In this document: positions 21,731-38,613 of the stretch, one piece after another
Layout of the letters: every line of letters starts with the position of its first letter
How positions within the stretch are numbered: position 1 is the stretch's first letter
Assembly: GCA_021772915.1 (NCBI GenBank)
Contig: JAJFLB010000009.1
Location: 62,001-126,000, forward strand
Origin: Gammaproteobacteria bacterium
Lineage (GTDB): Bacteria > Pseudomonadota > Gammaproteobacteria > Xanthomonadales > SZUA-36
Direction of reading: 5' to 3'
Length of the DNA stretch: 64,000 bases
The notes under the pieces: model-generated
Told to the model about the DNA's origin: nothing
The model's database searches: none
The model's input: only the letters and a program-made list of their open reading frames with translations
Translations under genes and position numbers: made by a program

Positions 21731-22144
21731 ATGAAAAAGAACGGATTATATGTACTTGGCAGTTTGGTCTTTGTGCTCCTTATCGGGATAACGGGGTCTG
21801 CCCTGGCGCAGGATCGAAGGGCTGAACCAGCACCTGTAACAGTTGCGTACCTGAATACCGAAACCGGTGTGGTAACACGTAACCTGCTCGCTGGATCGAA
21901 ATCCATACCCCTTACCATGGAATTGCTGCAGGGCTTACGTACCGATAGTGGCGATCTGGGGGCGAAAGCGGGAGTGAACGGGGCATCAGTCGTTGATCTC
22001 CATGGTCGTTTTCAACACGTGATGGTTGGCAGTGTCGGAGCGGACGGGAAAGTTACGGTGGGGCATGCCGGAGCTTCGGCAGGTGCTCATGAGCTTGGTG
22101 AATTTCTGCAAGCCGAACAAGAAGCCAGGGTTGGGGATCAATAA
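21731..22144 (+). CDS. Small secreted protein coupled to a metalloprotease
   Basis: A 137-residue protein with a signal peptide (KKNGLYVLGSLVFVLLIGI, ending near ALAQ). The start is taken at the ATG opening that signal; a longer frame from 21695 adds 12 unlikely residues. The mature part has VTVAYLNTETGVVTRN and then VVDLHGRFQHVMVGSVGADG. That second block resembles the short domain that automated pipelines call post-PEP-CTERM-1, though I cannot verify the match. Its stop codon overlaps the start of the metalloprotease by one base (TAATG), so the two are co-translated. It may be a chaperone, inhibitor or surface partner of the protease. Confidence 0.65.
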   Translation: MKKNGLYVLGSLVFVLLIGITGSALAQDRRAEPAPVTVAYLNTETGVVTRNLLAGSKSIPLTMELLQGLRTDSGDLGAKAGVNGASVVDLHGRFQHVMVGSVGADGKVTVGHAGASAGAHELGEFLQAEQEARVGDQ

Positions 22145-23235
22145 TGACTAATATCAATGCGAGGAGTAACAATATAAGTGGTCGCAATGTGACCGCTGGT
22201 CTGTTTCTGGCCACGATTTTGGTGGCCGGAGTGGGTCAGGTCCAGGCTGCAGCGACGATAACCATGGATTATAGTTTGGACGGCGCTACGGAAGGATTTA
22301 AATCTACCGCTACCGCTCACGCCCCTTCAACCGCTGCAGGCAATCCCGGAGCCGATCTGGGGGCACAACGCAGGGCATCAATTGAGGCCGCCGCCGCCGT
22401 ATGGGGCGTTGCACTCAATAGTACTATAACGACTGTCGTGCAAGCCAAAATGGACCCTCAGGGTACTTGCGTGGGGACCTTTACGCTTGGTTCTGCCGGA
22501 AGCAATAATGTTCACTCGAACTTCGCCAATGCTCCAGCAGCCAATATGTGGTTTCCGGGGCCTCTGGCCAACAAAATTGCCCTTTCAGATTTAAACGCTG
22601 GCACACAAGACATCAATGCGACTTTTAACAGTCAGCTTGATAGTCATGCTAGCTGCATAGGTACCTCCCAATGGTTTTACGCGCTGGATAACCGGGTGGC
22701 TCCTGCGAACCACGTATCTTTTTTCAGCACGGCACTCCACGAAATCGGCCACGGCCTGTGCGTTTCTTCGTTTATGAACGGTGCTACCGGGGAGCTCTTT
22801 AACGACGGGGACGGACCTGATACCGGGGCCTTCGGTCAAACTGACTACTACTCCAGGTTCATGGAGCTCCACGGGACTGGTTTGCTCCCCGCGATGGGGA
22901 CGGATGCTGCGCGTCTGGCTGCTTTCACTTCTGATCCCCTGTTGCACTGGACCAGCACTAACGTTGATGCAAATATTGCCGGTGCAAATTTGTCTGGCGG
23001 CATAAATGGCGGTCATGCGATGCTGTATGGTCCCAGTCCCTTCGAAGGTGGTAGTTCACTCAGCCACTGGGACGAAACTTTTCTCCAGAACGTTACGAGC
23101 AAGCATGAGTTTATGGAGCCCAGTGCCGATGCCCTCTCAGGCGACTTGCTCACCCGGTTTATGTGTCAGGATGCCGGCTGGGGAGCAACAAATGCTAACG
23201 TGCCCGTCCAACTCAAGAGCTTTTCTGTCGACTAA
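22144..23235 (+). CDS. Secreted zinc metalloprotease ending in PVQLKSFSVD
   Basis: A 363-residue secreted protein. An extended signal region (residues 15-36, ending VQA) is followed by a zincin-like domain containing STALHEIGHGLCVSSF, with H199, E200 and H203 as zinc ligand, catalytic base and zinc ligand. Six cysteines suggest disulfides. The extreme C-terminus reads VPVQLKSFSVD and matches the terminus of the secreted repeat protein at 30.9 kb (TPVELLEFSVD) at seven of eleven positions. There is no membrane helix or basic tail after the motif. It is coupled to the small secreted protein upstream, and a strong hairpin follows. Protease identity is good; the tail's sorting role is inferred. 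Confidence 0.82.
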   Translation: MTNINARSNNISGRNVTAGLFLATILVAGVGQVQAAATITMDYSLDGATEGFKSTATAHAPSTAAGNPGADLGAQRRASIEAAAAVWGVALNSTITTVVQAKMDPQGTCVGTFTLGSAGSNNVHSNFANAPAANMWFPGPLANKIALSDLNAGTQDINATFNSQLDSHASCIGTSQWFYALDNRVAPANHVSFFSTALHEIGHGLCVSSFMNGATGELFNDGDGPDTGAFGQTDYYSRFMELHGTGLLPAMGTDAARLAAFTSDPLLHWTSTNVDANIAGANLSGGINGGHAMLYGPSPFEGGSSLSHWDETFLQNVTSKHEFMEPSADALSGDLLTRFMCQDAGWGATNANVPVQLKSFSVD

Positions 23236-23371: not shown

Positions 23372-24121
23372 CTAAATACCAAGCCGCTGAACAAGAATAT
23401 CTGGTAGCACCCGGACAACCCCCATAATGGGTCGCCAATAGGCTGGCAAGTAAACCGTGCCATGATGTCTTGCAAGCTTTCCATCCATGGCGTGGGCAAC
23501 ACGTTCCGGCGTGGACCACAGCAGACCCTTTGAGAGTCCCGCAGTCATCGGTGTATCAACCGGACCCAGGCGCAAGTCGAGCACCCGCACACCAGTTGCT
23601 GCAAGGCGGTGCTGCAGACCACCGAGGTAGCAGGAAAGCCCCGCCTTGGTGGCACCATAGATGTAATTGGATGGTCGGCCACGATCCCCCGCCACGGAAC
23701 TGATAGCCGCCAGGCAACCACTGTGTTGCTGCTCAAATCTGTTTGCCAGCAAGGTGAGGAGTGACAGGGGGCTGATGAGATTGGTCTGGATGAGCGTGCG
23801 TTGTTGTTTCCAGTCAGTTTCACCCTCGCTTTGACTACCCAGCGTGGCGTGGGCCAACAATGCGAGATCAGGCTCACCGAGGCTTTCCCAGCCCTCGGTG
23901 ACGAGTTTTTTGTGTTGTTCTGTGTCACACAAATCCGCCACAGCGACGGAAACCTTTGTCGCTCCACGCAAATCAAGATCGCCGGCCAGGTTTTGTAATG
24001 CATCGTGATCGCGGCCGACCAGGTGCAAAACAGCCCCACGTGAGGCCAGTATGCGGCAATAAGCGGTTGCGATGGCAGAGGTCGCACCAAACACCAAGGC
24101 TGCTTTAATAGGTCTCTTCAT
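23372..24121 (-). CDS. DprE2-like short-chain dehydrogenase
   Basis: A 249-residue SDR with the N-terminal Rossmann motif FGATSAIATAYCRIL, the catalytic serine in AAISSVAGDRGRPSN, and the YxxxK pair in YIYGATKAGLSCYL. These segments are those of DprE2, which with DprE1 converts decaprenylphosphoryl-ribose to decaprenylphosphoryl-arabinose by oxidation then reduction at C2. The ATG at 24121 overlaps the stop of the DprE1-like gene by four bases; the longer frame from 24145 is not needed. It is the last gene of the C25 peptidase operon. Assignment as the C2 keto-reductase rests on motif similarity plus the adjacent DprE1-like partner and nearby UbiA-type enzyme. Confidence 0.85.
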   Translation of the reverse strand: MKRPIKAALVFGATSAIATAYCRILASRGAVLHLVGRDHDALQNLAGDLDLRGATKVSVAVADLCDTEQHKKLVTEGWESLGEPDLALLAHATLGSQSEGETDWKQQRTLIQTNLISPLSLLTLLANRFEQQHSGCLAAISSVAGDRGRPSNYIYGATKAGLSCYLGGLQHRLAATGVRVLDLRLGPVDTPMTAGLSKGLLWSTPERVAHAMDGKLARHHGTVYLPAYWRPIMGVVRVLPDILVQRLGI

Positions 24122-25431
24122 CCTGATTGCTCCATCCGGCGCCAAAAGTCCGAAGCAAAGAGCGGATCATGTTGTTGGGTGAATTGTTCCAGTTTGGGGT
24201 AACCGCTAGTGAACAGTGTTGGCGACATTCTGGCATCCTTGGCAGGGTAGAGTTTGCCACCGCAGTCCGCAACAACACCGTCGAGTGTATCCAGCAGCTT
24301 GTGGGTTTTCGTGCCATGGTTGGCAAGGTCCAGGGCTATGGAAAACCCGGGGACCGGAAATGACATCAGTCCGGGTGAGGATCGGGGTCCAAACCATTTT
24401 CCCACCGCCAGTAACACGCGTTGACCGCTAGTTTCAATGACGCTCAACAGTTCATCCAGAGCAGACTCCGCGACTGCCGTCGGCAATACACTCTGGTGTT
24501 GAAAAAAGCCGGGTTTGCCAAACAGCGCATTCCAATCGGGTAGGCGGTCCAGTGGGTAAAGTACCGCATCCGCCGTTGTCTCCTGGGCACCGGACCTGAT
24601 TCCCCTTCTATACCAGAGATTGCCGGTCTTCATCACCAGTCGGCCCGGTAGGTCAGAGGGAAATCCAGCCATCACTCCAAATCGGATACGTCGTTTGGCT
24701 GGCCATGTCAGATTGCCTTGCCTCTGCGAGTGATTGGCCATGATGTAATGGCCTTTGCGACAACCAGTGGCAGGGTCCAGCCAGACACTATGGTATTCCC
24801 AGGCCTCAAAATGCTCGTCCGCCAGGGAAAAAAGTGTGGACAGTTGATCAAATGGAATTCGCCGGGCTTTCATGGTGAGGGATTGTATGCGTCGCAATTG
24901 CAGTTTGGCACTCAGGATCAATCCAGTTAAACCCAGACCGCCGATTGTGGCAGCAAATAACTCGTTATTGCTCTCGAGGCTGCAGTCGAACACCTCACCG
25001 TTGGACCGGGCTAGTTTCAGGGCAATCAAGTGCGCACCGAAACAGCCTTCCTGCACATGATTCTTGCCATGCACATCATTGGCAATTGCACCACCAATGG
25101 TAACCCACTGGGTGCCGGGGACCACTGGTAGCATCCAGCCAGTGGTGGACAACAGGCGGTTGACATTCAGGATACTGACGCCTGCCTCACATTTCAGAAT
25201 TCCAGTTTCGGGATCAAAAGATAAAAGACGATTCAGAAAGCGGCAATCGATCAGTGCCCCGTCGGTATTGAGTGCGCAGTCACCATAGGACCGACCCAGA
25301 CCACGACCCAGGAAGGATTTGTGTTCTCCGGAGCTGAAAATTTGCTTTAGGTCTCTGACTGATGTGGGCGCAAAAGTATAAGCAGGGGTACCGGTGCTAA
25401 CACCGCCCCAGCCGTACGTACTGCGGTCCAT
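24118..25431 (-). CDS. DprE1-like FAD-dependent oxidase
   Basis: A 437-residue VAO/FAD_binding_4 flavoprotein. The pyrophosphate-binding loop SFLGRGLGRSYGDCALN is nearly that of mycobacterial DprE1. The FAD domain continues with PGTQWVTIGGAIANDVHGKNH, and the C-terminal segment GGKLYPAKDARMSPTLF is also DprE1-like. Where, from memory, DprE1 has the benzothiazinone-targeted cysteine (NICVDF), this protein reads SIALDL, so that residue appears to be Ala. The start is the ATG at 25431, one base overlapping the GT-C stop (TAATG); a longer frame upstream lies inside the GT-C gene. The predicted reaction is oxidation of polyprenyl-phosphoryl-ribose at C2. Confidence 0.88.
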   Translation of the reverse strand: MDRSTYGWGGVSTGTPAYTFAPTSVRDLKQIFSSGEHKSFLGRGLGRSYGDCALNTDGALIDCRFLNRLLSFDPETGILKCEAGVSILNVNRLLSTTGWMLPVVPGTQWVTIGGAIANDVHGKNHVQEGCFGAHLIALKLARSNGEVFDCSLESNNELFAATIGGLGLTGLILSAKLQLRRIQSLTMKARRIPFDQLSTLFSLADEHFEAWEYHSVWLDPATGCRKGHYIMANHSQRQGNLTWPAKRRIRFGVMAGFPSDLPGRLVMKTGNLWYRRGIRSGAQETTADAVLYPLDRLPDWNALFGKPGFFQHQSVLPTAVAESALDELLSVIETSGQRVLLAVGKWFGPRSSPGLMSFPVPGFSIALDLANHGTKTHKLLDTLDGVVADCGGKLYPAKDARMSPTLFTSGYPKLEQFTQQHDPLFASDFWRRMEQSG

Positions 25432-26699
25432 TACAGGGTTTCGCCGGTATCTGGACGAACCCGGAATAACACCAAGGTAACAGCAAGACCAACACCAGCG
25501 ATCCACTCCACAGTACTCTGGGTGCTCAATAGCGTTGGCCAAAAATTGGGTTCGTAAACAGTCGAGACAAGCAACAGTGCAGCACCCGGCAGCCATGCCT
25601 GGCGATAACGGGTGCGGTTGTGAATCAGACTGGCTGCTGCCAGTGCCAGGGTCGGCCAGAGTATGACGGGTGTCGTTGACCCGGACACCAGTAGCGCCAA
25701 AAACGTCGCCGAAGTAAACAGCGGAAAGGCGAGTACCAAAACAATTTGTAATGGGTAAAGAAGACGAGGGGAAATTTCAGGATAACCCAAGCCAGTGGGG
25801 GGCAGTAACCGGTGCAACACAAAACTGTCTGGCCCCAGGCTTGCCCACGCTCGCAATAGCACACTCCAGAAGGTTCGAAACGGCCGCACCAACAGCCTGC
25901 GAAGACTGGTGACGCTATGGGTAAGCCGGTCAGGGTGGGTCATCCCATTCCAGACTGAAATGGTCTTTAGAACTTCTCCTTCGACACGAAGCTTGCCCCC
26001 TTGTTGCCCTTCGGTCTCGCCTGCCGCAATCATCAGGTTAAACATCCATGTGGTGTCTGGCCAGGGAATTTGATAGCGACGGGCATTGCGTACGGACGAG
26101 TAGGCAAAAACAAGCAATGTTGGCGCCAGAACAAAGATCCAATCCCGGATTGGCCCGGGTGTCAGGGCAAAGCCTGCGAAGGGTGCCAGCAGCAGGGCGT
26201 CAAATCGGGTCATAAAGGCCAGGGCAGACACTATACCCAACAATGCTGCCCGCAGGTTTGACGGCAGATCAGGGTAAACCAGGATCAGGCAGGCCAGTGA
26301 CAACCACAGACCCAGCCAGATGTCCGGCCAGACATGCTGGCTGAGGATGAGCCGACCGGGCATGAGCACGAGTAACAACCCGATGACGAGTGCGGCTTGA
26401 GTACCACCAATAAGCTGTGCACTTAGCATACTTGCCAGGGAGGTCAGTGCTGAAGCAGCAGTGGTGGCAGAACGTAGCGTTTGTTCAGGATTAGTACTGT
26501 AACAGTGTGCCTGTTTTGACAACCAGGCCATCAACGGGACCCTGAGAAATTGCCCCGGGGCATAGGGGTCGGTCTGCGCACCGCATTGCACATAGCTACA
26601 CTCATCACCCACTCCCACGACCGGACCCAGGGCGCGCCGGATTGTCAGCCGGACAAAAACCAGAACCAATAAAACCAGGAGATAGGGAAGCCAGGTCAC
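25431..26699 (-). CDS. GT-C-like multi-membrane glycosyltransferase
   Basis: A 422-residue protein with roughly ten hydrophobic helices. An early periplasmic loop carries an acidic pair (GVGDECSYVQCG, about residues 30-41) positioned like the catalytic Asp/Glu of ArnT/PMT-type GT-C transferases. A later loop (residues about 220-290) holds TWMFNLMIAAGETEGQQG. GT-C enzymes take sugars from polyprenyl-phosphate donors. With DprE1/DprE2-like enzymes immediately downstream, a pentofuranosyl-phosphate lipid donor is the natural candidate. It begins 27 bases after the fibronectin-like gene. Sequence similarity to a defined transferase is low; a transporter or polymerase role cannot be excluded. Confidence 0.72.
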   Translation of the reverse strand: MTWLPYLLVLLVLVFVRLTIRRALGPVVGVGDECSYVQCGAQTDPYAPGQFLRVPLMAWLSKQAHCYSTNPEQTLRSATTAASALTSLASMLSAQLIGGTQAALVIGLLLVLMPGRLILSQHVWPDIWLGLWLSLACLILVYPDLPSNLRAALLGIVSALAFMTRFDALLLAPFAGFALTPGPIRDWIFVLAPTLLVFAYSSVRNARRYQIPWPDTTWMFNLMIAAGETEGQQGGKLRVEGEVLKTISVWNGMTHPDRLTHSVTSLRRLLVRPFRTFWSVLLRAWASLGPDSFVLHRLLPPTGLGYPEISPRLLYPLQIVLVLAFPLFTSATFLALLVSGSTTPVILWPTLALAAASLIHNRTRYRQAWLPGAALLLVSTVYEPNFWPTLLSTQSTVEWIAGVGLAVTLVLFRVRPDTGETL

Positions 26700-26726
26700 T
26701 TTTGACTGGCTAGGCCGACGTCAAAA

Positions 26727-27089
26727 TCAAGGCTCCGTAGCCGGAAATTTTGGTTTGGACTGAAAGGTTGGAGTGAATTTCTCACGCTCGCCCGACATGG
26801 AGATACTCTCCACATAGTACCAATAGGCTTTTCCGGTTTCTATGCTGGCATCAACGAATTCATAGCGGTTGGGTGTGTCGGAGTTGCCGGCACCGGCGAT
26901 GGTGCGTGGGCTGATCTTATCAAATGGACCTTCTTCGGCGTCACCACGAAATACATCAAAGCCAAAATTGTTCAGCTCACTGGCGGTGGACCATTTGATG
27001 CGGTTGGACACCTCGTTGTTTTCCGCTGTGCCGCCAGAAGCGGAAGCCAGCAACAGGATTACCAGAGCGGGGATTATCATATTTCGCAT
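26727..27089 (-). CDS. Small secreted fibronectin-III-like protein
   Basis: A 120-residue secreted protein with signal peptide MRNMIIPALVILLLASASGG. It then has a single beta-sandwich segment: NRIKWSTASELNNFGFDVFR, a central RYEFVDASIETGKAYWYYVE strand pair, and a Pro-rich tail. In the widespread C-terminal domains of type IX secretion cargo and similar proteins, the segment WTTASE-NNFGFEV is normally preceded by a strand of the form PVELTSFSA. That first strand is absent here, the mature chain starting ENNEVSN. The same strand appears as the C-terminus of two other secreted proteins in the window. It lies 9 bases downstream of the C25 peptidase gene in the same operon. Confidence 0.75.
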   Translation of the reverse strand: MRNMIIPALVILLLASASGGTAENNEVSNRIKWSTASELNNFGFDVFRGDAEEGPFDKISPRTIAGAGNSDTPNRYEFVDASIETGKAYWYYVESISMSGEREKFTPTFQSKPKFPATEP

Positions 27090-27098
27090 ATTAGCTTC

Positions 27099-29756
27099 CT
27101 AGTCTCCAACCAGGGGTTTTGATGTGCCGGCGCGGCTGACCTGCCGGGGAGCCCCGACAGATTTGCTGGAGGCCATTGCCGGTGACACCTCAATGCTGCC
27201 CATAGCGTCGATGTGACGTTTCGGGTTCCAGGCATAGGCCCGAATCTCGCCAACCGGCTCCACCGGGTCATTTGGCACTCGCAGCTTGAATTTGCCCCGT
27301 CGTAACTTTGCTTGCCTGCTTTGGATCAGGTTGCCCAGGGTGTCTTGCAAGTCGATCACCACCTGGCCGCTGAAAGCGGCGTCCACTACCTTGCCCTTGA
27401 TCTCAATGTAATCGTTGCGCTGCTTGATGGTGAGATTGATATGGTGTCCCGGCAAGGCCAGACGCGCAGCTGGATCACCGAGAAGGTTGTAGGTTTCAAT
27501 CATCATCCGGCTCGATTGTGACTTTTGCTTCGCGCGCATCACGGCCTCGCCCATGGTTCCCGGCCGGGTCAGCTCGTTGAGCATGACCTGGCTGAAATTC
27601 TGAGTGGGTGAATTGCGCCAGGAAGCAGCCAGAATGCCTATTGCTCCACGGTCAGGCATACGCAGAAACTTTTCACCGATCGAATCGGCTGTTGGGTGAT
27701 CAAAGGGTGCCGAGTAACAGGTCATGCTCAACACAAACGGCAGTCGTGTGGTGGGGGTGAGCTGATCCAGATGATCCAGGGTAAAAAGGTCGTGGTTCTT
27801 GCGAAAATCGGGTGGGCCGGTACGCCAGATATAGCGTCCACCGTGACCCAGAAAATGGACGATTAACTGACCGTCGTTAAAGGCGTCTTGCAACTCCTCC
27901 TGATGCCTGACGTTGTCTTTTTCTTGTGCCGATGGATAGATTTTGGTACCGCTAAAGCCGTTCTCTCCCAGGGTTTGATCCAGCTGATTGCTGGTCCACT
28001 GGAAACCCGTTTGCTCGTTGGTTATCCACAACACCTTGCGTCGCCACGGCCCGACTTCAGACTGCTGGTGATAGTTTATTGTCTTGTTGACAATGGCGCT
28101 GACATCGAGCGGGTCGCTGACCGGAAATCTGCCGATGGCCAAATCAGGCAGATAATCATCGCCATCCACGGTCACAAAAACGTTATCACTGGCGGCATAG
28201 CCTTCGTAGGTGTCGACTTGCCAGGTCGGCATCAGGTTGCGATCGGCTGCGATCAGACTGTCCGCATACGCATCACTCCCGTTCTTGGCAAATTGGCTTT
28301 TCTCGTGTTGTCTGAAAGTCCAGTCGGCGTAGTTCCGGTCGTTCCCAACAGCGTTGTGTACCTCCCAACTGGCGTCACCGACCAGTAATACAAAGCGAGG
28401 CTTGGGTTGTTGCCAGTTGTGGTAGGCGTGACTGATGAATTCACGAATGGCAGTTGGTGCCAGTACACCTTCATTGAACTCGTCGTAGACATCCTCGATA
28501 TCGATAACCTGGACAGTCAGGCCCTGTTGCCGATGAAAATCGGCGAGTGGCTCGACGGCCTCACGCAAACGCCGATGGGTAAGCATCAGGTAGTCTGCCT
28601 GTTGATTGGTATTGCGCAGGTTTGACGGATTATCAGCAACCATGGCAACCGGCTGGTGAAAGACATCACCCACCACTGCCACGTAAGTCGAGGTGTCTTG
28701 AAGCGTCGCATAACGGTGCCAGAACTGATTGTCACGCTGATACGACTCAATGGGCTTCAGTTGTTGACCCGTCTCACCCACCAGCACCGGGGGCGTTTTA
28801 CTCTCACCAGACATTTGAAACCATCCTCCTTCCTGGTGCTTGACGTGCAGCTTGTGTTGACCGGCGGGTAGCAATCCTGTGTGGGGGTAGTTCACCTCCA
28901 CCCAATTCAGCAGGACAGCATCGGCCAGTGGATTCAAGCTGGATTCAGGGGTTCGTTCCGGAACGCCAAGTGACAGGCTATTGGGGCCGGCGTCATTGAG
29001 TACTTCGACAGGTATCGACTGGATATCAATTATGAATTCTTCCTGACCCTGCCACTCTCCAGAGCCTATCAGTTGGCCATTCAGAAACACCTCGACCCGG
29101 TGATCGGACATATCGGAGAGGATCCAAGTGGGTGGTGTAGACCACCCGCGTAACCCGATCCTGATCGTGGGTGAGGAATCGGTTTGTATTTGCTGTAAGT
29201 CCAGCGGGACCACAAACGGTTCAGGATCAATCGAGTTGAGTCTCGCCCAATACCAGACTTCGGGTTGCGGAGCATCGGCATGACCGGGAAAACGCACCCG
29301 CAGTTCGTCCTTCTCAAGGTGCGTCCAGGACCGCAGGACGGAAGCATCTTGATGACGCCCGCCCTGCAGTGCCGGGATGATCCGACTGGCCGGTTCTTCT
29401 GCCTGCGTGAGCCAGTAGGTATTGTATGGGCTGAACTCGTTGTAATAGGAGTTCGATCCGGCAAGGTGGTGGGCGTAAAACACCAGATCCCCCGGCGTGC
29501 TTGGCGTTATGCCCACCACTGAATAAGGTGTTGATTCGCCCCCGCTGGATAGCCGTAGCTGCTCCAGCTTTAAGGCAGCGCAGCCGAAAACTTCACGCAG
29601 ATCACCACCCGGGATACGATATATACCTGAGTTTGTGACCCTTACCTTAACCGATGGTGCATTTTCACACGGGCGCTCATCCGTTGTTGCGCCCAGTGCC
29701 TGGATGGTAAACAGACCACCCGACAACAATAAACCATAAGCAAGACGCTGAATCAT
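27099..29756 (-). CDS. C25 (gingipain/PorU-like) cysteine peptidase
   Basis: An 885-residue secreted protein with signal peptide (IQRLAYGLLLSGGLFTIQA). It has a PorU-like N-terminal region (VRVTNSGIYRIPGGDLREVFG), a jelly-roll-like stretch to about residue 370, then a Peptidase_C25 domain (about 385-765). Active-site segments are IVHFLGHGGRYIW with H638 and LSMTCYSAPFDHP with C680. PRFVLLVGDASW and DGDDYLPDLAIGRFPV are also characteristic. A C-terminal Ig-like domain covers about 765-860. C25 includes gingipains and PorU, the sortase of the type IX system. No T9SS core gene is in the window. The ATG at 29756 opens the signal peptide. It heads a five-gene operon. Confidence 0.88.
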   Translation of the reverse strand: MIQRLAYGLLLSGGLFTIQALGATTDERPCENAPSVKVRVTNSGIYRIPGGDLREVFGCAALKLEQLRLSSGGESTPYSVVGITPSTPGDLVFYAHHLAGSNSYYNEFSPYNTYWLTQAEEPASRIIPALQGGRHQDASVLRSWTHLEKDELRVRFPGHADAPQPEVWYWARLNSIDPEPFVVPLDLQQIQTDSSPTIRIGLRGWSTPPTWILSDMSDHRVEVFLNGQLIGSGEWQGQEEFIIDIQSIPVEVLNDAGPNSLSLGVPERTPESSLNPLADAVLLNWVEVNYPHTGLLPAGQHKLHVKHQEGGWFQMSGESKTPPVLVGETGQQLKPIESYQRDNQFWHRYATLQDTSTYVAVVGDVFHQPVAMVADNPSNLRNTNQQADYLMLTHRRLREAVEPLADFHRQQGLTVQVIDIEDVYDEFNEGVLAPTAIREFISHAYHNWQQPKPRFVLLVGDASWEVHNAVGNDRNYADWTFRQHEKSQFAKNGSDAYADSLIAADRNLMPTWQVDTYEGYAASDNVFVTVDGDDYLPDLAIGRFPVSDPLDVSAIVNKTINYHQQSEVGPWRRKVLWITNEQTGFQWTSNQLDQTLGENGFSGTKIYPSAQEKDNVRHQEELQDAFNDGQLIVHFLGHGGRYIWRTGPPDFRKNHDLFTLDHLDQLTPTTRLPFVLSMTCYSAPFDHPTADSIGEKFLRMPDRGAIGILAASWRNSPTQNFSQVMLNELTRPGTMGEAVMRAKQKSQSSRMMIETYNLLGDPAARLALPGHHINLTIKQRNDYIEIKGKVVDAAFSGQVVIDLQDTLGNLIQSRQAKLRRGKFKLRVPNDPVEPVGEIRAYAWNPKRHIDAMGSIEVSPAMASSKSVGAPRQVSRAGTSKPLVGD

Positions 29757-30026
29757 GTAGTTTGCTACCAAGGACCCAAAAAGAGCCCATTGTAGCCGAG
29801 AATCTGTGCAACCTGAAAGAGCGGTAATCCGTTGCGAACATTACACAAAAATGGTTGCGTTACATGCTTGCCACTTCCTCAGCCGTTGCGTCGTCGGGAT
29901 AAACACTCCGCAGCCGGTACCGGGAGTCCAACATGCCGCCGGTATTGATAATCGACAGATTCCTGACGTTTGTTTATACTTTCCTCTGTGTTGCGCAGGG
30001 GCGCTTTTCGATTTTGGAGCATTAGT
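29757..30026. promoter_or_regulatory. Divergent promoter region of the C25 / UbiA locus
   Basis: This 270-base intergenic region separates the start of the C25 operon (minus) from the start of the secreted repeat protein (plus) and must hold both promoters. An A/T-rich stretch (TTGTTTATACTTTCCTCTGTG near 29969) lies close upstream of the plus-strand gene, and a GGAG at 30016-30019 precedes its ATG. I see no convincing operator palindrome. Confidence 0.5.
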
Positions 30027-30884
30027 ATGAAGTTTGGGAAACAAACAATAGTTGTTGGGTTAATTGCCGTTTTCTCGTATGCCGGACCGCTGAATGCGGG
30101 CAACATGCAGGCTTATTTCCAGCCCCCCGTCGGAGGCGGAACGCTCGACGATATCAATGCAGCCACCGCCGCCACCACTGTGCCACCGGCCTACACTACT
30201 TGCGCTACTCCGCCACCGACAAACAAAGTTTTTGGGGTTGGTTTCACCTCGGGTCTGGCCTACAACGGTGCCGGTGTGCTGTATGGACTGAATTGGTCGG
30301 GGGGTGCCGCCGGCTCACCGATTTTTTTGCACACCTTTTCAGCCGGTCCCTGCGCAACCGGCACCAATGTGGGTGCCGTTGCGGTCGGCCCGGTTAATCT
30401 CGAAAGTCTGGCCTTTTGCGCCATCGATGGATTGTTTTACAGTGTTGACTGGGACGCCACGCCACCACACCAGGGTCAACTGTTGAGCATCGTCGCGGCG
30501 ACCGGTATCGGTACACTGATCGGCGGACACCTGACCTTTGATCGGCGTGTCGTCGGTATGGTCTGTGACGCAACCGGGCAGTTGTGGGCGGTGACTTCCG
30601 GTTTTGCTACAAAGGGTTCTGAGTTACTCAAGATCAACCGCACAACGGGTGTTGAAACGCCGGTGGGGTCATTGGGTCTGGCGCCCAATGAGGTAGAAAG
30701 TCTGGCCGCAGAACCGGGTGATACCACCAAATTGTTCGCAGCAGGCAAAGGCCTCCATGAGATCAACAAGACAACCGGCGCTGCGGGGCCCAAGATCGGT
30801 GCTGCAACTTACGCCCAGTACTGGGCCATGGCAGGGACGGCGACCGCTACCCCGGTAGAACTACTTGAATTCTCAGTAGACTAG
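30027..30884 (+). CDS. Secreted repeat (propeller-like) protein ending in PVELLEFSVD
   Basis: A 285-residue secreted protein with signal peptide KFGKQTIVVGLIAVFSYAG (cleavage near NAG). Repeated blade-like segments follow (GVGFTSGLAYNGAGVLYGLN, LESLAFCAIDGLFYSVDW, GMVCDATGQLWAVTSG, VESLAAEPGDTTKLFAAG), suggesting a small beta-propeller of the kind seen in surface proteins. It ends TPVELLEFSVD with nothing after the motif, matching the metalloprotease tail. The start is the ATG with GGAG seven bases upstream. The UbiA-family gene begins 14 bases after its stop, so this cargo-like protein and a lipid-sugar enzyme share an operon. Function unknown; a surface or matrix protein is likely. Confidence 0.78.
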   Translation: MKFGKQTIVVGLIAVFSYAGPLNAGNMQAYFQPPVGGGTLDDINAATAATTVPPAYTTCATPPPTNKVFGVGFTSGLAYNGAGVLYGLNWSGGAAGSPIFLHTFSAGPCATGTNVGAVAVGPVNLESLAFCAIDGLFYSVDWDATPPHQGQLLSIVAATGIGTLIGGHLTFDRRVVGMVCDATGQLWAVTSGFATKGSELLKINRTTGVETPVGSLGLAPNEVESLAAEPGDTTKLFAAGKGLHEINKTTGAAGPKIGAATYAQYWAMAGTATATPVELLEFSVD

Positions 30885-30898
30885 CAGGCAACAGCAGG

Positions 30899-31846
30899 GT
30901 GAAATCACCCGTTCGAACCGCAGATATCGCGACGGATCAGAGGCTGAGTTCAAATCTACGCACCGGACCGATCGTCTGGTTGGTAGAGCTCCGCGTGCAT
31001 CATTGGGTAAAGAACACTTTGGTGTTCCTGCCGCTCGCCTTGACGCCCCAGTTACTTTCCTCCCAAACCGTGATGCAATGTTTGTTGGGTTTCCTTGCCC
31101 TCAGCCTTGTCTGTTCGGGAACCTACGTGTTGAACGACTTGCTCGACCGCGAGGCTGATCAGCACCACAAGTCCAAATCCCAACGCCCTCTGGCCAGCGG
31201 CCGCATTACGACATCAGCAGCAGCGCTGGGCGCTGTCGGCCTGTGTATCTTTGGATTGGCATGGGCCGTTACCATCAATGGTGTATTCGCGGCGTTTCTA
31301 GCCGGTTACATGCTCCTATCCCTGATCTATTCCTATTACCTCAAAACCCTGGTGTTACTGGACCTGGTTACGCTGGCAAGTATGTATACCTTGCGCATGG
31401 CGATGGGTGTCGCTTTGATCGGTGGCGCGTTTAAACCGTGGTTGCCGGTATTCGTTTTTCTGTTTTTTGGTGGTCTGTCTGCGGTTAAGCGAACGACAGA
31501 ACTGGTGAAAAGGACCAGGCGTGACGACCACTCAGATAATCGACGCGGTTACCAGGAAGAGGATCTTCCTCTGCTGATTGCCCTGGGTATAAGTTTCAGT
31601 GTTGGTGCGTTGATCGTGCTGGGTATGTTCCTTTCCGTGGTGGCGGTGCCTGAGCTGGTCTATCGCTCACCACAACGGCTTTGGTTTGCGCTCTCCTTGC
31701 TGCTCGTGTGGACCTTGCGGTTTTGGGTGCTCTCGGTACGTGGCACCTTACCGGATGATCCGGTCTTGTATTCCCTGAAGGACCAGTTTTCACTTATTGT
31801 GGGTATTTTGTTGTGCTTGTCCATACTTGCCACTCATCTCCCATGA
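30899..31846 (+). CDS. UbiA-family prenyltransferase, DPPR-synthase-like
   Basis: A 315-residue integral membrane prenyltransferase. The first metal motif is VLNDLLDREADQHHKSKSQR (N79, D80, D83, D87 of the NDxxDxxxD type), followed by PLASGRI. The second region, around YSYYLKTLVLLDLVTLASMYTLR, and the loop ending RRGYQEEDLPLL resemble decaprenyl-phosphate phosphoribose (DPPR) synthase rather than quinone UbiA. DPPR synthase joins phosphoribosyl pyrophosphate to polyprenyl phosphate, the step before DprE1/DprE2. Having all three activities within 9 kb is the main support for that reading. The start is a GTG preceded by AGCAGG. It follows the FSVD-tailed protein by 14 bases and precedes DsbB by 52. 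Confidence 0.85.
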   Translation: MKSPVRTADIATDQRLSSNLRTGPIVWLVELRVHHWVKNTLVFLPLALTPQLLSSQTVMQCLLGFLALSLVCSGTYVLNDLLDREADQHHKSKSQRPLASGRITTSAAALGAVGLCIFGLAWAVTINGVFAAFLAGYMLLSLIYSYYLKTLVLLDLVTLASMYTLRMAMGVALIGGAFKPWLPVFVFLFFGGLSAVKRTTELVKRTRRDDHSDNRRGYQEEDLPLLIALGISFSVGALIVLGMFLSVVAVPELVYRSPQRLWFALSLLLVWTLRFWVLSVRGTLPDDPVLYSLKDQFSLIVGILLCLSILATHLP

Positions 31847-31898
31847 GTTCACCTGCTGCATAGTCACGGGAATTCTGTCTTCTAACAGGAACAGGTCA

Positions 31899-32333
31899 GT
31901 GAACAGTCCCCAGAAAACTCAACCTGGCTGGCCCTTGCTTTTTGCCACCTGGATCGTGGTCGCTGTCGCGACCTTGGGCAGCCTTTTTTCCAGTGAGGTA
32001 ATGGATATTCCTGTATGTGTTCTTTGTTGGTATCAACGCATCGCCATGTATCCCCTGGTACTGGTTCTGGCGATTGGATTGTTTCCGTATGATCCCAAGG
32101 TGGTACGGATTGCGGGAGCGTTGGCGGCTTTGGGGTGGGTCATTGCGTTATACCATGTCTTGCTGGTAGCCGGGATCATCCCTGAAGCTGCCCAGCCTTG
32201 TGTACAGGGCATCCCCTGTTCGGAGACCCACATCTCTTTATTTGGGTTTTTGAATTTACCAACGCTTTCTTTGTTGACGTTTACGCTGGTCTGTATTTTG
32301 TTGCTTTATACACATAGGATTGAATCATCATGA
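31899..32333 (+). CDS. DsbB/BdbC-like disulfide-forming membrane protein
   Basis: A 144-residue four-helix membrane protein that reoxidises a DsbA-type partner using quinone. Two redox pairs are visible: CVLC (C40, C43) after the first helix and CVQGIPC (C101, C107) in the second periplasmic loop. The short length and spacing fit the BdbC/DsbI branch. The GTG start has an AGGA eight bases upstream; the frame extends further upstream without a good start. It overlaps the DsbA-like gene by four bases (ATGA). Its place in this operon suggests a dedicated oxidative-folding pair for exported proteins of the locus, several of which have cysteines. Confidence 0.9.
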   Translation: MNSPQKTQPGWPLLFATWIVVAVATLGSLFSSEVMDIPVCVLCWYQRIAMYPLVLVLAIGLFPYDPKVVRIAGALAALGWVIALYHVLLVAGIIPEAAQPCVQGIPCSETHISLFGFLNLPTLSLLTFTLVCILLLYTHRIESS

Positions 32334-32980
32334 GCAGGAAAACACTATTTGTTTCCGTCGCCGGGCTGGTCTTGGTCGGCTTTGTTGTTGCCACGGTACT
32401 ATTCCAAAATAACCAGGCCACACAGCGGGGATCATCGGGGGGTCAAAACCAGGGAGTGGTGGAACGGGCAGGGGCTCCCGTCAAGGGCGCCGAAGATGCC
32501 AGGGTCACCATTGTCGAATTTTTTGACCCGGCTTGCGGTACTTGTCGGGATTTCTATCCCCTGGTGAAACAGTTGATTGACCGGTATCCGGGGAAAGTCA
32601 GGCTGATGGTGCGCTACGCACCACTCCACACGGGTTCGGACCAGGTTGTAAAAATGCTGGAGGCGGCCCATCAGCAGGGTAAGTTTTGGCAGGCCCTGGA
32701 GCTGTTATTCGACAGCCAGCATCGTTGGGTCGCCAACCACGTGTCTCAACCCATGCGGGCCAGGGGCATATTGAACGGCATGGCAATGGACCACAAGAAA
32801 CTGATGGTTGATATGAATGGTCCCGCCGTTGCGGGCGTGGTTCAGCAGGATGTGAGGGATGGCAAAACCCTTAAAGTCCGGGCCACACCGGAGTTCTTTG
32901 TCAATGGTCGTCCCTTGCCCAGCTTTGGTTACAAGCAACTGCGCGAGCTGGTAGCTGACGCCGTGGACAAAGCATACTGA
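32330..32980 (+). CDS. DsbA-like thiol:disulfide oxidoreductase
   Basis: A 216-residue membrane-anchored thioredoxin-fold protein. After the N-terminal helix (LFVSVAGLVLVGFVVATVLF) and a linker, the catalytic site is FFDPACGTCRDFYP (C69, C72), with the cis-proline loop RATPEFFVNGRPLP. The inserted helical domain has DsbA_2/BdbD-like size. It oxidises cysteines of exported proteins and is recycled by the overlapping DsbB-like gene. It is the last gene before the palindromic element copy 1. Confidence 0.9.
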   Translation: MSRKTLFVSVAGLVLVGFVVATVLFQNNQATQRGSSGGQNQGVVERAGAPVKGAEDARVTIVEFFDPACGTCRDFYPLVKQLIDRYPGKVRLMVRYAPLHTGSDQVVKMLEAAHQQGKFWQALELLFDSQHRWVANHVSQPMRARGILNGMAMDHKKLMVDMNGPAVAGVVQQDVRDGKTLKVRATPEFFVNGRPLPSFGYKQLRELVADAVDKAY

Positions 32981-33321: not shown

Positions 33322-36012
33322 TTGAAAACGAACCAACAGCAAACACAGACGCCGCGCATTGCGCTTGTCCTGTTGTTGTTTTTTACTTCCGGCGTCCTGG
33401 CGCTGACCTACGAAGTCGTTTGGACCCGTATGATGGTGAGTGTGTTCGGGTCGACCGCAGTTGCGGTTGGAACCGTGTTGGCTGCGTTTATGGCGGGTTT
33501 GGCCATAGGCGGTTGGCAGATTGGTAAATTTGCCGACAAAAGCCGACATTGTTTACGGCTTTATGCCTGGCTCGAACTCAGCATTGCCCTGGTCGCACTT
33601 GCTTCTCATCTGGTTTTAAGCCAGATAGGTCCTGCGCACACGGTCATCTACGAACTTGTTAGTTCGTCCGCTGCCAGTTTTGGTTTCGTCCGCTTTGTGC
33701 TGGCATTTGCACTTGTCATGTTACCCACCCTGCTGATGGGGGCAACGTTACCCGTACTAAGCCGATTTCTGCTGGGCAGGACGAACACGGTGGGGATCAA
33801 TCTCAGTACGCTATACGCGGTCAATACATTGGGCGCAGTGGTAGGTGTGCTGATTACCGGGTTTTTCCTGATCGGCAGATACGGCGTCCATGTTCCGGTC
33901 TACGGTGCGGTGATGGGTAACCTGATGGTCGGGGTCATCGCCTGGATTGCATCCTTTCGCATACCAGCGACATTGTCCGGCAAACTGTCGGCCCCAAAGG
34001 ATTTGGACGAAGTCGTTGCCAGTAAGATTGGCCCCCCCGGCCCCGTCACCACCAGGATTATCCTGCTGGGATTGGGGTTATCCGGTTTCACTTCCTTTGC
34101 TTATGAGATTTACTGGACAAGATCGCTAGTTTTTGTGCTTGGAAACTCAACCTATGCACTCACAACCATGTTGAGTTCCTTTCTAACCGGTATAGCGCTG
34201 GGCGGCTATCTGATCCGATTCCTGTTGCGAAGAAGCGTAGATAGATGTGTCATTTTTGGCTGGGTCCAGGTGCTGCTCGGTACCTTTTCAGCACTGGCAT
34301 TACCGCTGTTGTTTTTGGTTTCAGACACCCGCTCCCTGAACCAATATCTGGTGGACACGGCGGGCCAGATTTTCCCACTTGTCTTTGCTGGCTTTGGTGT
34401 GGCCTTCCTGGTCATGCTGATTCCCGCCATGCTCATTGGGGCGACCTTCCCGCTGGTGGGGCAAATATGTGTCAAAGATCCACAACATGCCGGCGCATCG
34501 GTGGGTAGGGTCTACGCCGTCAACACGTTTGGAAACGTGTTGGGAGCGCTGGCGCCTGGATTTATCCTGCTCAACTGGCTGGGCATTCAAAAGGGAATAC
34601 TGGCCATGGCGGCGCTCAATGCGGGCTTGGGTTTTGTTATTCTGTTCTTACGGCTGACACCCCGGTCAAGACATCCGGCCTGGCGGTTGGTTTTGCCCAC
34701 GTTGCTGGTTCTGTCAGCGTTCACCATGAGTCGCGCGCCGCTTGATTTTCAGTTTCCATCGGAAGGCGAAACCAGTAATCAGCAAACACTTTTCTATCGT
34801 GAGGGCCCGTCAGCGACGACCAAGGTGTTTTGGGACCCCGCAAAGCAAGAAAAGCACATGAGTGTGGACGGCATCGTCATTGGCGGCACCGGGATGGTCG
34901 AGTTCAAGCAGCTGCTACTGGCACATTTGCCAAAGCTGCTGCTGCAGGACGTTGCCACTGAGCTTTCCATCGGTGTGGGTTCGGGTATCCTCCTGGGTGA
35001 AAGCTTTCGTCACCCCAGGGTAGAGAACATCACCGGGGTGGAGATCGAACCCGGTGTAGTCGAGGGTGCCGACTGGTTTTCTGAAGAAAACCATCGTGTC
35101 CTGCAACACCCGGGCCTGGAAATTGTAAATGATGATATCGGTAACTTTCTGCGTACGACATCAAAAACCTACCAGGTCATTACGGCAGATGAAAAGACCG
35201 CTGATGAATATGCATCCAATGGATTTTCATACTCCCTCGAATATTATGAACTTCTGAACCGGCACCTGGCACCCGGCGGCCTGGTTGCGCAGTGGATTCC
35301 GACAACATTGCCACCCGAACAGTATCAAATGATCCTTAGAACGTTTTCCGACAGCTTTGCCCATGTACAACTATGGTACTTTTTACCTGCGCGCAAGAGA
35401 GGGCCCTTCAATTCCATTTTAATTGGTTCCAAACAGGCCATTCCGATTAGCATCAATCACATGAGTCGGCAGTTTGCAGAAAACCACCAGGCATACCAAA
35501 GCCTCGCACCGTATGGTCTAAGCTCGGCCGAGGCCGTTGTGCCACATTTTGTGGCCGATGAAAAACATATTCGGGAAGCGGTCAGCACAGCCGTTGTTAA
35601 CAGCCTTGATTACCCCCGTTATGAGTTTTATTACCCGTGGGACTACAAGACTGAAGAGCAAAACAAGTTTGTTTCAAATCACCAGTTTATTATTGAGCTC
35701 AAACGAAAGGCGTATGCGGGATACCTGGCAGCGCTTGTGGCGGATAGTCCGGAGAGTGCCCGGCTCGGCTTGACACTTACTGCAGAAGATATCTTTCTCG
35801 TGGGGTTTGAAAAATTTCTGCTGGGGTTGTCGCTAACTGAGACTTATCGCATTTTCGACTATGTGCTTTCGCTGGCACCCTGGAATGAGAGTCTCAGATC
35901 CCGTATTTACGTTATATATGCTCATATCGCGGCCAGTGGTGGCAGCCCAATGGAGCGGACACAACGAATGAAGCGAGCAGACTCTTTGTATGAGGAAGCA
36001 CCAGGACCCTAA
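33322..36012 (+). CDS. Fused membrane transporter-like / spermidine-synthase-like protein
   Basis: An 896-residue protein. The N-terminal half (to about residue 460) has about 12 hydrophobic helices of the MFS-like module found in fused spermidine synthases; FTSGVLALTYEVVWTRMM and YEIYWTRSLVFVLGNSTYAL are two repeat halves. The C-terminal half has a Rossmann-like aminopropyltransferase domain: IGVGSGILLGESFRHPRV, GVEIEPGVVEGADWF, EIVNDDIGNFLR and YQVITADEK. The usual catalytic DxxD region is modified, so true spermidine synthesis is doubtful. A TTG start is inferred, with a GGAG 11 bases upstream. The end of the palindromic element lies 26 bases before it. Function unknown. Confidence 0.82.
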   Translation: MKTNQQQTQTPRIALVLLLFFTSGVLALTYEVVWTRMMVSVFGSTAVAVGTVLAAFMAGLAIGGWQIGKFADKSRHCLRLYAWLELSIALVALASHLVLSQIGPAHTVIYELVSSSAASFGFVRFVLAFALVMLPTLLMGATLPVLSRFLLGRTNTVGINLSTLYAVNTLGAVVGVLITGFFLIGRYGVHVPVYGAVMGNLMVGVIAWIASFRIPATLSGKLSAPKDLDEVVASKIGPPGPVTTRIILLGLGLSGFTSFAYEIYWTRSLVFVLGNSTYALTTMLSSFLTGIALGGYLIRFLLRRSVDRCVIFGWVQVLLGTFSALALPLLFLVSDTRSLNQYLVDTAGQIFPLVFAGFGVAFLVMLIPAMLIGATFPLVGQICVKDPQHAGASVGRVYAVNTFGNVLGALAPGFILLNWLGIQKGILAMAALNAGLGFVILFLRLTPRSRHPAWRLVLPTLLVLSAFTMSRAPLDFQFPSEGETSNQQTLFYREGPSATTKVFWDPAKQEKHMSVDGIVIGGTGMVEFKQLLLAHLPKLLLQDVATELSIGVGSGILLGESFRHPRVENITGVEIEPGVVEGADWFSEENHRVLQHPGLEIVNDDIGNFLRTTSKTYQVITADEKTADEYASNGFSYSLEYYELLNRHLAPGGLVAQWIPTTLPPEQYQMILRTFSDSFAHVQLWYFLPARKRGPFNSILIGSKQAIPISINHMSRQFAENHQAYQSLAPYGLSSAEAVVPHFVADEKHIREAVSTAVVNSLDYPRYEFYYPWDYKTEEQNKFVSNHQFIIELKRKAYAGYLAALVADSPESARLGLTLTAEDIFLVGFEKFLLGLSLTETYRIFDYVLSLAPWNESLRSRIYVIYAHIAASGGSPMERTQRMKRADSLYEEAPGP

Positions 36013-37335: not shown

Positions 37336-38613
37336 CTACGGGGTAATTGTTGCCCGCAACATTACATTGTTGAACGCTTCGTAGCCATGCAAGGTGATGT
37401 GCCAACGACCCGCGGGCGGATTGTTCACTCTGACCTTCTCCGTGTTGCCAAACAGGTAAGGAGCGTAGTCGTGGTCGTCCGGTGAAGCTTCACGCCCTCT
37501 CGCCACGTACAGATCGACGTCGCCGCTGCCAGACCAGGTCTTGATCACGAGCCGGCTTTGTCCACTGGGAACGTCGATATAGTACTGGCGGACTGTGCCT
37601 TCTGCACCACTCAGACCAGCGATAGTCTCACCAGTGTCAAGGGCGTTTTCAGCCACGGGTGGTAGTGGATCCGGTGGGGCCGGATTCGGACAGCTGTCAC
37701 CGGGGTCGGTCGGATCAGTCGGATCGGTTGGATTGGTTGGATCGGTTGGGTCAGTCGGATCCGTGGGTCCGCCGTTACTGCCGATCCTATCAAGGATCCA
37801 GTCACGATGGCTGTAGGTACGCGTGTAAACGCCGTACTTATTGGGCTGGGCACAGCCCTCTCCCCAACTCACTACACCGATGTGATATTCGCTACTGCCA
37901 CTGGTCACCCACAGCGGCCCGCCACTGTCTCCATAACAGGAGTCTTTGCCGCCTTCGGCCAGACCGGCGCAGATCTGCGCGCTGTTGATTTCACCGTCAT
38001 AAGCTGAGGGTGAATTACACTCGGAATTGGTAACGATAGGCAGGGTAACCTGGTGCATTTGATCGGGTGAACCCCCATTTTCCGATAACGCGCCCCATCC
38101 CGAGACCGTTGCCGGTTGATTGGGTGCCCCGGCGCCACTCATCACCGCCATGGTTGGCAGTAAAACGGTGGGTATTGAATCGGGTAACGACGATGCCAAT
38201 CTCAGCAGTGCAATATCATTTTCCAGCGTCGAGTCGTTGTATTGGCTGTGGACGATGATCTGTACGACATCACGGCGGAACCCCTGATCGGTCAGAAACA
38301 GGTCATGGCCCCCAACCCAGACACTCAGTCCCGGGTCGCCGGCCGTCTCACCAACCGTGCAATGGGCGGCGGTCAATATCCACTCGCTGCCTACGACTGC
38401 CCCACCGCAAAAGTGTTCGCCTTCATACTGGAGCGAGGTAATCCACCGCTGCTGTCCTTCGGTAGAGGGACCACCACCCACGATTTTCACCGTTCCACCC
38501 GTTGTTGTGTCCGGGGCCATTCTGGTCTTGTTGAGGTAGTCACCTGCAACTGATAGTTGGGCAACCAGCAATAGCGATAAAGTGCTGGCGAATTGCGTTA
38601 ATCTCGTAGTCAT
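37336..38613 (-). CDS. Secreted trypsin-like serine protease with C-terminal PPC domain
   Basis: A 425-residue secreted S1A protease. The signal peptide (TQFASTLSLLLVAQLSVAG) is followed by a short propeptide and the activation site VKIVGGGP. The triad is visible in LTAAHC (His), ENDIALLRL (Asp) and CYGDSGGPLWV (Ser), with VVSWGEGC. The Asp in GGKDSCYGDSGG predicts trypsin-like Arg/Lys preference. A linker of repeated T-D-P units leads to a roughly 100-residue prepeptidase C-terminal domain (QYYIDVPSGQSRLVIKTWSG, GDVDLYVARG, GRWHITLHGYEAFNNV). GGAG lies seven bases before the ATG. A two-component system lies just upstream on the same strand. Confidence 0.93.
   Translation of the reverse strand: MTTRLTQFASTLSLLLVAQLSVAGDYLNKTRMAPDTTTGGTVKIVGGGPSTEGQQRWITSLQYEGEHFCGGAVVGSEWILTAAHCTVGETAGDPGLSVWVGGHDLFLTDQGFRRDVVQIIVHSQYNDSTLENDIALLRLASSLPDSIPTVLLPTMAVMSGAGAPNQPATVSGWGALSENGGSPDQMHQVTLPIVTNSECNSPSAYDGEINSAQICAGLAEGGKDSCYGDSGGPLWVTSGSSEYHIGVVSWGEGCAQPNKYGVYTRTYSHRDWILDRIGSNGGPTDPTDPTDPTNPTDPTDPTDPGDSCPNPAPPDPLPPVAENALDTGETIAGLSGAEGTVRQYYIDVPSGQSRLVIKTWSGSGDVDLYVARGREASPDDHDYAPYLFGNTEKVRVNNPPAGRWHITLHGYEAFNNVMLRATITP
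37702..37768. repeat. In-frame 9-bp tandem repeats encoding a T-D-P linker
   Basis: About seven degenerate copies of a 9-base unit (GGATCGGTT-like on the plus strand) encode the repeated Pro-Thr-Asp spacer between the protease and PPC domains. Copies differ mostly at silent positions. Such repeats can change linker length by slippage. Confidence 0.8.

Follow-up and report, generated by a model that had tools for sequence, protein, structure and literature searches.

A short C-terminal tag and a small secreted partner protein as probable parts of one recognition domain in a candidate PorU-like sorting system of some Gammaproteobacteria and Myxococcota

The 64,000-nucleotide stretch of DNA analysed here, referred to below as the window, is part of contig JAJFLB010000009.1 of a gammaproteobacterium (assembly GCA_021772915.1) and carries the genes of what is probably a C-terminal protein sorting system. 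On its reverse strand lies the gene of an 890-residue PorU-like C25 peptidase (27099-29771), next to that of a small secreted protein (26727-27089), here called the partner, whose Fn3-like domain appears, from profiles and AlphaFold2 modelling, to be without its first strand. Divergent from the C25 gene, on the forward strand, is the gene of a secreted protein (29970-30884), termed a secreted repeat protein in a preliminary description of this DNA, which ends in the ten residues PVELLEFSVD directly before its stop codon (30852-30884, stop included). The same C-terminal tag, in the form PVQLKSFSVD (23203-23235 with the stop codon), closes a second secreted protein, which is encoded on the forward strand at 22144-23235 and weakly matches the metalloprotease model NF038122. 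The latter tag lies just outside the interval 23372-32980 covered by the preliminary description, in which neither tag had been noticed. The genes named there were all recovered where it had placed them, as open reading frames (ORFs) and by Pfam and NCBIfam models.

The peptidase is a member of family C25, with the Pfam model Peptidase_C25 matching at E=4.9e-87 and 293 bits against a cut-off of 23. The NCBIfam models of PorU and PorU2 match below their cut-offs (NF033707 with 243.8 bits, cut-off 420), and a sequence search of the PDB returned PorU (6za2, E=6.7e-18) and the gingipains. The His of the GHGG motif and the Cys of the TCYS motif align with PorU and gingipain, in the latter of which they are catalytic; the motifs are intact as first described. 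These putative catalytic residues of the window enzyme, His643 (codon 27843-27845) and Cys685 (codon 27717-27719), are kept in all 20 C25 homologues that were aligned.

The tag is a recurrent feature of secreted proteins. A profile of three tags gave five matches in the window's own genome, every one of them C-terminal, and a six-seed profile, made of five own-genome tags and one from locus L003, found a sixth, weak own-genome site (LPVELMNFEVN before the stop, E=0.42). L003 is the best homologous locus returned by a search with the small gene; its genome was labelled Myxococcota by a tree tool, and a secreted protein there ends in IIPVELQSFSIE followed by the stop codon. The consensus of the tag is PVELQSF.ID, usually preceded by L, V or T, and the form proposed is [LVT]PVELQSFS[IV][DE]-stop. 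Across the loci collected from the window's order and from the genome of L003, 94 distinct ORFs (a chance hit, L204, counted in) carry the tag pattern, which allowed V or I at the second residue, any of LMFIV at the fourth, and up to six residues after [VI]. Despite this freedom PVxL occurs in all 94; in 87 exactly one residue follows [VI], and 76 close with D or E. By a crude rule, a signal-peptide-like start is present in 82 of the 88 ORFs whose 5' end is complete. The bodies of those tagged proteins that were scanned differ, being metalloprotease-like, containing a PPC domain or matching no family, and in seven tagged proteins the tag lay outside every NCBIfam and Pfam match at E<=10. One genome has 40 tag-profile matches (E<=0.05).

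No Pfam family was found for the partner, and its NCBIfam matches are all sub-threshold. A tblastn search with the partner alone against 72,556 plasmids matched six records, all from Bacteroidota, three of which are annotated as type IX secretion system (T9SS) type A sorting domain proteins. In these proteins the matching part lies near the protein end, the order being cargo, intact domain and C-terminal region, and in all six it is directly preceded on the same chain by the motif LP[VI][EQ]L..F, e.g. LPVELLSFTTEVKNTDVHIVWTTAQELNNDGFVIEKS. The six of six from tblastn is the unbiased count of this motif, because the larger alignment of intact domains was partly gathered with the motif itself. 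In the window, the partner domain begins at about ..NRIKWSTASELNNFGFDVFRG, and among the 26 partners read, of 30 listed, none has the motif PV.L..F within 60 residues before the anchor Trp; in the partner of L266, eleven residues separate the hydrophobic stretch from this Trp. The partners' C-terminal tails are short and variable, and contain no C-terminal domain (CTD) of the type IX kind.

Both the tag and the partner can be placed on the intact domain. The alignment used (A8) holds 38 of the 74 loci found and was gathered with peptide patterns including the LPVEL motif, which introduces a bias into its tag columns. The profile built from 74 tags falls on columns 1-12 of this alignment (E=2.3e-6), and the real tag score was reached by none of 150 column permutations of the intact alignment and none of 150 of the tag alignment. 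The partner profile aligns to columns 16-92 (E=3.4e-13), and the tag and partner profiles do not match each other. The AlphaFold2 model of the intact domain (38 natural sequences, predicted local distance difference test score, pLDDT, 91.3) has its first strand at residues 4-13, the position of the tag. The model of the partner (6 sequences, pLDDT 76.4, residues 1-22 below 50) is all-beta with its first strand at 29-35, in agreement with the small beta-sandwich protein first described. The seven-strand Fn3/Ig-like sandwich appears incomplete in the partner, as its aligned part starts after strand A. Foldseek neighbours of the partner model are mostly Fn3 domains, the top match being 4m6a (E=4.8e-3), an Fn3-type scaffold with N-terminal strand swapping according to its title. 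For the intact domain the best Foldseek E-value is 9e-4, and the E-values are modest, with many other Ig-like chains scoring about equally. PDB sequence searches gave nothing at E<=1 for the partner and only matches at E>=0.018 for the intact domain. As judged by profile alignment, the tag and the partner complement each other as pieces of one domain, which elsewhere is a single chain, and the small protein, which had been given no role in the preliminary description, seems to act as receptor of the cargo tag.

Two side observations concern the intact domain. The Bacteroidota type (L258-L263, L284-L357) is without a clear Pfam model, any one family matching at most 5 of its 38 members, with E-values no better than 7e-4. 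Within the window's order, an apparently intact domain together with its first strand is present in long proteins (L032, L042, L033, L238, L239, L241, L243, L255), the majority of which also have a C25 domain further along.

Co-occurrence was assessed in 220 genomes of the order, all searched with the partner, C25, six-seed tag, 74-tag and DprE1 queries. Nineteen genomes are partner-bearing, defined by a stand-alone partner at E<1e-30; four more, out of 23 at E<=1e-3, have weak matches in long frames. At E<=1e-3 the tag is found in 15 genomes, all among the 19 (Fisher p=6e-20), a co-occurrence that is partly circular in that the tag profile (A4) includes sequences from the order genomes tested; the six-seed and Myxococcota searches are less so. 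With the six-seed profile at E<0.03, 14 of 15 matched genomes are partner-bearing, or 13 of 14 when the own genome is excluded, and the association of tag and partner thus has a footing outside enrichment of the profile. Tags occur in all four genomes of loci L003-L006, L006 being located in G010. Relaxing the threshold to E<=0.05 gives 29 genomes, 17 of them partner-bearing and 12 partner-free, and in 10 of these 12 the match is not at a C-terminus, four of the ten (L095, L196, L197 and L201) looking like internal matches in one protein family. Of the other two, L092 offers only a fitting 15-residue frame on the opposite strand, and L204, a 145-residue frame ending in PVALQHFAIAA before the stop and having no signal-peptide-like start, is the chance hit mentioned above. 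G012 has another small partner-like gene (L037), which none of the listed tag matches adjoins.

The same association is found in a second phylum. Among 247 Myxococcota genomes, seven have a stand-alone partner (E<1e-30), and exactly these seven have the tag (E<=0.003; Fisher p=1e-13), the 74-row tag profile holding a single tag from them, that of L003. In all seven, C25 and partner genes lie side by side on the same strand. A C25 peptidase alone is unspecific, because 67 of the 247 genomes have one at E<=1e-60. Out of 23 further Myxococcota tag loci (33 tag matches listed), 21 are C-terminal by pattern.

A further set of domains ties the tag to the partner. Nine diverged partner-like domains (E 1e-12 to 1e-18) were found in five genomes of one family, f12 (L038, L039, L040, L041, L114-L117), in open frames of 344-569 residues, some of them at the ends of long repeat-like proteins. 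A tag match lies within 2 kb of each of the nine, and no C25 match is listed at any of these places. The tag is therefore linked to the partner domain independently of the C25 enzyme, and tag binding may not need to involve C25. The possibility that these long frames are fusions of tag and partner was rejected, as the domain is not preceded by the motif and the tagged genes are separate ones beside it.

The C25 enzyme is also linked to the partner in the order. All 19 partner-bearing genomes have some C25, against 39 of the 201 others, and C25 and partner genes are no more than 14 kb apart at 14 places in 13 of the 19. A tree was made of 34 C25 cores: 15 near a partner gene (that of L003 and those of the 14 linked order loci), 7 that are the best from partner-bearing genomes in which the pair lies apart, and 12 others, which were a choice of loci at hand and include two further C25s of partner-bearing genomes (G010, G004). 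The 22 cores of the first two groups are separated from the other 12 by a branch with support 100/100; of these 22, only the 15 near a partner test the clade independently, because the group labels of the other seven were assigned by similarity. With a PorU-like sequence, invariant putative catalytic residues and a clade found in genomes that share tagged secreted proteins in two phyla, the window enzyme is very probably part of a system for protein sorting or for surface proteins. To this extent the preliminary reading of the locus, as one for sorting or modification of surface proteins, is upheld.

These comparisons point to a probable C-terminal sorting system with a split recognition domain, in which the cargo would donate its C-terminal strand to the partner and the PorU-like C25 enzyme would act on the complex. 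Exported cargo would end in the ten-residue strand, and a separate small secreted protein or lipoprotein would form the rest of the Fn3/Ig-like domain. As a first step, which has strong sequence support, the tag would insert as strand A and complete the fold of the partner, similar to the strand swapping of Fn3 domains. The C25 enzyme would then recognise the completed domain and cleave, or cleave and transfer, as suggested by the genetic linkage, the single C25 clade and the conserved catalytic residues. Finally, the cargo-partner unit might be fixed at the cell surface, possibly through the lipid anchor of the partner where this is a lipoprotein; alternatively, C25 might catalyse its joining to a glycan or lipid, with a neighbouring GT-C enzyme contributing. 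Cleavage, ligation and an acceptor are what we infer for these later steps. In Porphyromonas gingivalis, according to a passage of PMC4804311, PorU removes the CTD and anionic lipopolysaccharide (A-LPS) is attached, the attachment of RgpB depending on the linker between its immunoglobulin superfamily (IgSF) domain and the CTD. Following this topology, the scissile bond here could therefore lie just before the tag or in the tail of the partner. A more specific version, in which the C25 sortase acts only on the reassembled domain, as on a sorting signal formed in trans, and joins the cargo to a lipid-linked glycan supplied by the GT-C protein and, in this lineage, by polyprenyl-phosphate-pentose enzymes, is tentative and somewhat doubtful.

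Several observations weigh against a split domain acted upon by C25, in addition to the partial circularity of the tag search and the lack of listed C25 matches at the nine diverged domains. Taken one by one, the Bacteroidota tblastn matches are weak, with E from 2e-3 to 0.7. The strand is different in the order's giant C25 proteins, the strict motif fitting three of eight segments, and the upstream strand in long Myxococcota proteins is closer to PFDLASF. The C25 and partner genes lie a long way from each other in G214 and G031, and in G010, G113, G177 and G178 they are on separate contigs. Finally, at E<=0.05 the tag is missing from two of the 19 partner-bearing genomes, G009 and G178, with G009 having one by motif.

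It is possible that strand complementation by itself anchors the cargo. Here non-covalent docking of the tag in the partner, which is often a lipoprotein or part of a larger Ig-repeat protein, would hold the cargo at the surface, and C25 would be a maturation protease that trims either cargo or partner and makes no covalent link. The nine diverged domains adjoining tagged genes with no C25 match nearby would fit such a mechanism, as would the lipobox-like N-terminus found by a crude rule in 14 of the 26 partners and the strand swapping reported in the title of 4m6a. Strand swapping of a T9SS sorting domain has also been reported and likened to pilus assembly (in a passage of PMC4804311). Against this, the adjacency of C25 and partner in seven of seven Myxococcota genomes and the invariance of the putative catalytic residues point to an enzymatic step on the complex.

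A second alternative takes the partner itself as the substrate: C25 would cut the partner tail, which occupies the place of the type IX linker to the CTD, cut by PorU after the Ig-like domain, and would so anchor the partner, with the cargo hanging on through its tag. The order of cargo, intact domain and C-terminal region in the Bacteroidota proteins, half of which bear the T9SS type A annotation, and the dependence of RgpB A-LPS attachment on the IgSF-CTD linker (PMC4804311, same passage) are in keeping with this. It is nevertheless unlikely, since the tails are short, variable and devoid of a CTD, and 14 of 26 partners are already lipoprotein-like.

The remaining genes of the locus bear on a third alternative. 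On the reverse strand, the partner gene is adjoined by that of a GT-C / PMT_2-like multi-pass protein (25431-26699; PMT_2 E=1e-3, under cut-off), beyond which lie the genes of a DprE1-like flavin adenine dinucleotide oxidoreductase (24118-25596) and a DprE2-like short-chain dehydrogenase/reductase (23372-24145; top model PRK07102, DprE2 next). The start of the DprE1-like gene is uncertain and probably near 25440, as the annotated frame overlaps the preceding gene. On the forward strand, the tagged protein at 29970-30884 is followed by a UbiA prenyltransferase resembling 5-phosphoribosyl-decaprenyl-phosphate (DPPR) synthase (30899-31846), a DsbB-like thiol oxidase with an uncertain start (31797-32333) and a DsbA-like thioredoxin-fold protein (32330-32980), the last two being only candidates as parts of the system. 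The UbiA, DsbB-like and DsbA-like genes are thus on the divergent strand as first described, and the GT-C-like, DprE1-like and DprE2-like genes are present with model matches below the cut-offs. The DprE1-like, DprE2-like and UbiA proteins all score under the NCBIfam equivalog cut-offs (298.9 of 500, 164.9 of 250 and 130 of 234 bits, respectively).

From this gene set it had been proposed that C25 joins the cargo to a polyprenyl-derived pentofuranose lipid made by UbiA, DprE1 and DprE2. Homologues of all three enzymes of the decaprenyl-phosphoryl-arabinose pathway are indeed found in the window, and the order C25, partner, GT-C, DprE1, DprE2 is identical in G077, whose DprE1-like and DprE2-like proteins are 54% and 65% identical to those of the window. 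However, within the stretches compared, the DprE pair is linked to C25 and partner in only 2 of the 14 linked loci of the order, the window and G077, which belong to the same family, and the expected conserved linkage of C25 and the small gene to UbiA/DprE1/DprE2 was therefore not borne out. Of the co-occurrence proposed at the outset, the part that holds is that of the C25 clade with the small Fn3-like gene. Genome-wide, DprE1 is enriched among partner-bearing genomes (13 of 19, three of the 13 being weak matches, against 24 of 201 others), with the gene located elsewhere in the genome; this enrichment may reflect ancestry or genome size, and DprE1/DprE2 were set aside as a core of the system. 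Other clusters hold O-antigen-type (by eye) or sulfatase and FG-GAP genes instead. A pentose-lipid acceptor of this kind is accordingly improbable.

The GT-C-like gene is more widespread than the DprE linkage, lying beside the partner in ten loci, so that a polyprenyl-phosphate sugar donor remains plausible. It is of one type in the window, G077 and G004 and of a second type in L004, L005, L007, G110, G214, G031 and G012, the two types being weakly similar (hhalign probability 34%). PMT_2 matches above its cut-off (43 bits) in the GT-C protein of G214, a positional relative of that in the window; the other GT-C-like proteins scanned gave weak PMT-type matches or none. A GT-C-like gene is also found about 4 kb from the partner in G150 and beside C25 in G010. 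In G214 the gene immediately after that of C25 codes for a UbiA protein (L119:7240-11061), and the same probably holds for G031 (L180; blastp frame).

That the tag is a functionless remnant, all that is left of the domain on degraded type IX cargo, is hardly credible: it does equal the first strand of the type IX pre-CTD domain, but it ends unrelated proteins at the same residue (87 of 94), strict-threshold tags occur only in partner-bearing genomes of two phyla, and the tags beside all nine diverged partner domains, like the co-occurrence as a whole, already contradict such decay.

One of the nearest known systems is type IX secretion, with which it shares a PorU-like C25 peptidase, a recognition element at the cargo C-terminus and the same Fn3/Ig-like domain, which in Bacteroidota cargo lies close to the C-terminus (three of the six proteins bear a type IX annotation). 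The difference is that both parts of the domain are on one chain in Bacteroidota type IX cargo, whereas here there is a ten-residue tag and no CTD, and the domain appears to be split between the cargo and a separate gene. In place of a CTD of about 75 residues, the 94 ORFs end at the tag, with at most six residues after [VI] and one in 87. The SprA model matched none of 22 genomes, and none of 14 control genomes either.

CTERM sorting tags consist of a motif, then a transmembrane helix and then basic residues. The present tag has neither helix nor basic tail, as a transmembrane-like segment occurs within the last 45 residues in 2 of the 94 ORFs and Lys or Arg after the tag Phe in 8. The associated protease is a soluble-type C25, and a protein receptor is proposed to complete the signal. 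The likeness to the PEP-CTERM/exosortase, GlyGly-CTERM/rhombosortase and MYXO-CTERM/myxosortase systems lies in a short C-terminal tag on many secreted proteins with one dedicated protease, as described in passages of PMC1569441, PMC3237569 and PMC11980579. Donor-strand complementation in chaperone-usher pili and A-strand swapping in Fn3 domains (4m6a) likewise complete the Ig-like fold of one chain with a strand of another; here, by contrast, numerous unrelated cargos would each donate a strand from their C-terminus, to an acceptor with linkage to a C25 enzyme.

A literature search of open-licence PMC papers found no description of the tag, the partner or this C25 group, and this labelling-and-capture route for exported proteins seems to be undescribed. 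While a C-terminal sorting tag with a dedicated protease is of a known kind, what would be new is the division of its recognition domain between the cargo and a receptor. If correct, this would establish C-terminal sorting tags of a new class in the window's order and in Myxococcota, give dozens of uncharacterised secreted proteins a common destination and supply a short natural peptide, with a protein as its receptor, that may be of use as a display tag. The split domain also suggests how the pre-CTD domain of type IX cargo and PorU-type sortases may relate to simpler systems, and the role of C25 enzymes outside Bacteroidota becomes directly testable.

The window's genome contains a second partner-C25 copy, consisting of a 699-residue C25 and a small relative of the partner with a lipoprotein-like start, followed by an MBOAT acyltransferase gene (L121:7544-11599). 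About 20 kb from this second locus is a tagged protein with NPT repeats and, by eye, a twin-arginine-like start (L011). As read by eye, L004 and G110 have glycosyltransferase-like genes and one for an exporter ATPase-like protein close by. The partner-C25 clusters of three other families (L108, L110, L111, L113) have recurring genes in varying sets, coding for sulfatase-tetratricopeptide repeat or phosphodiesterase, peptidyl-prolyl isomerase, FG-GAP/UnbV and DUF11 proteins. Downstream in the window, on the forward strand, is the gene of a membrane protein with a spermine-synthase-like domain (33322-36012; Pfam PF01564), whose blastp homologues recur near the partner-C25 pairs of three other genomes (L110, L111, L113), and at 37336-38613 the ORF list contains, by eye, a secreted trypsin-like protease that ends without the tag.

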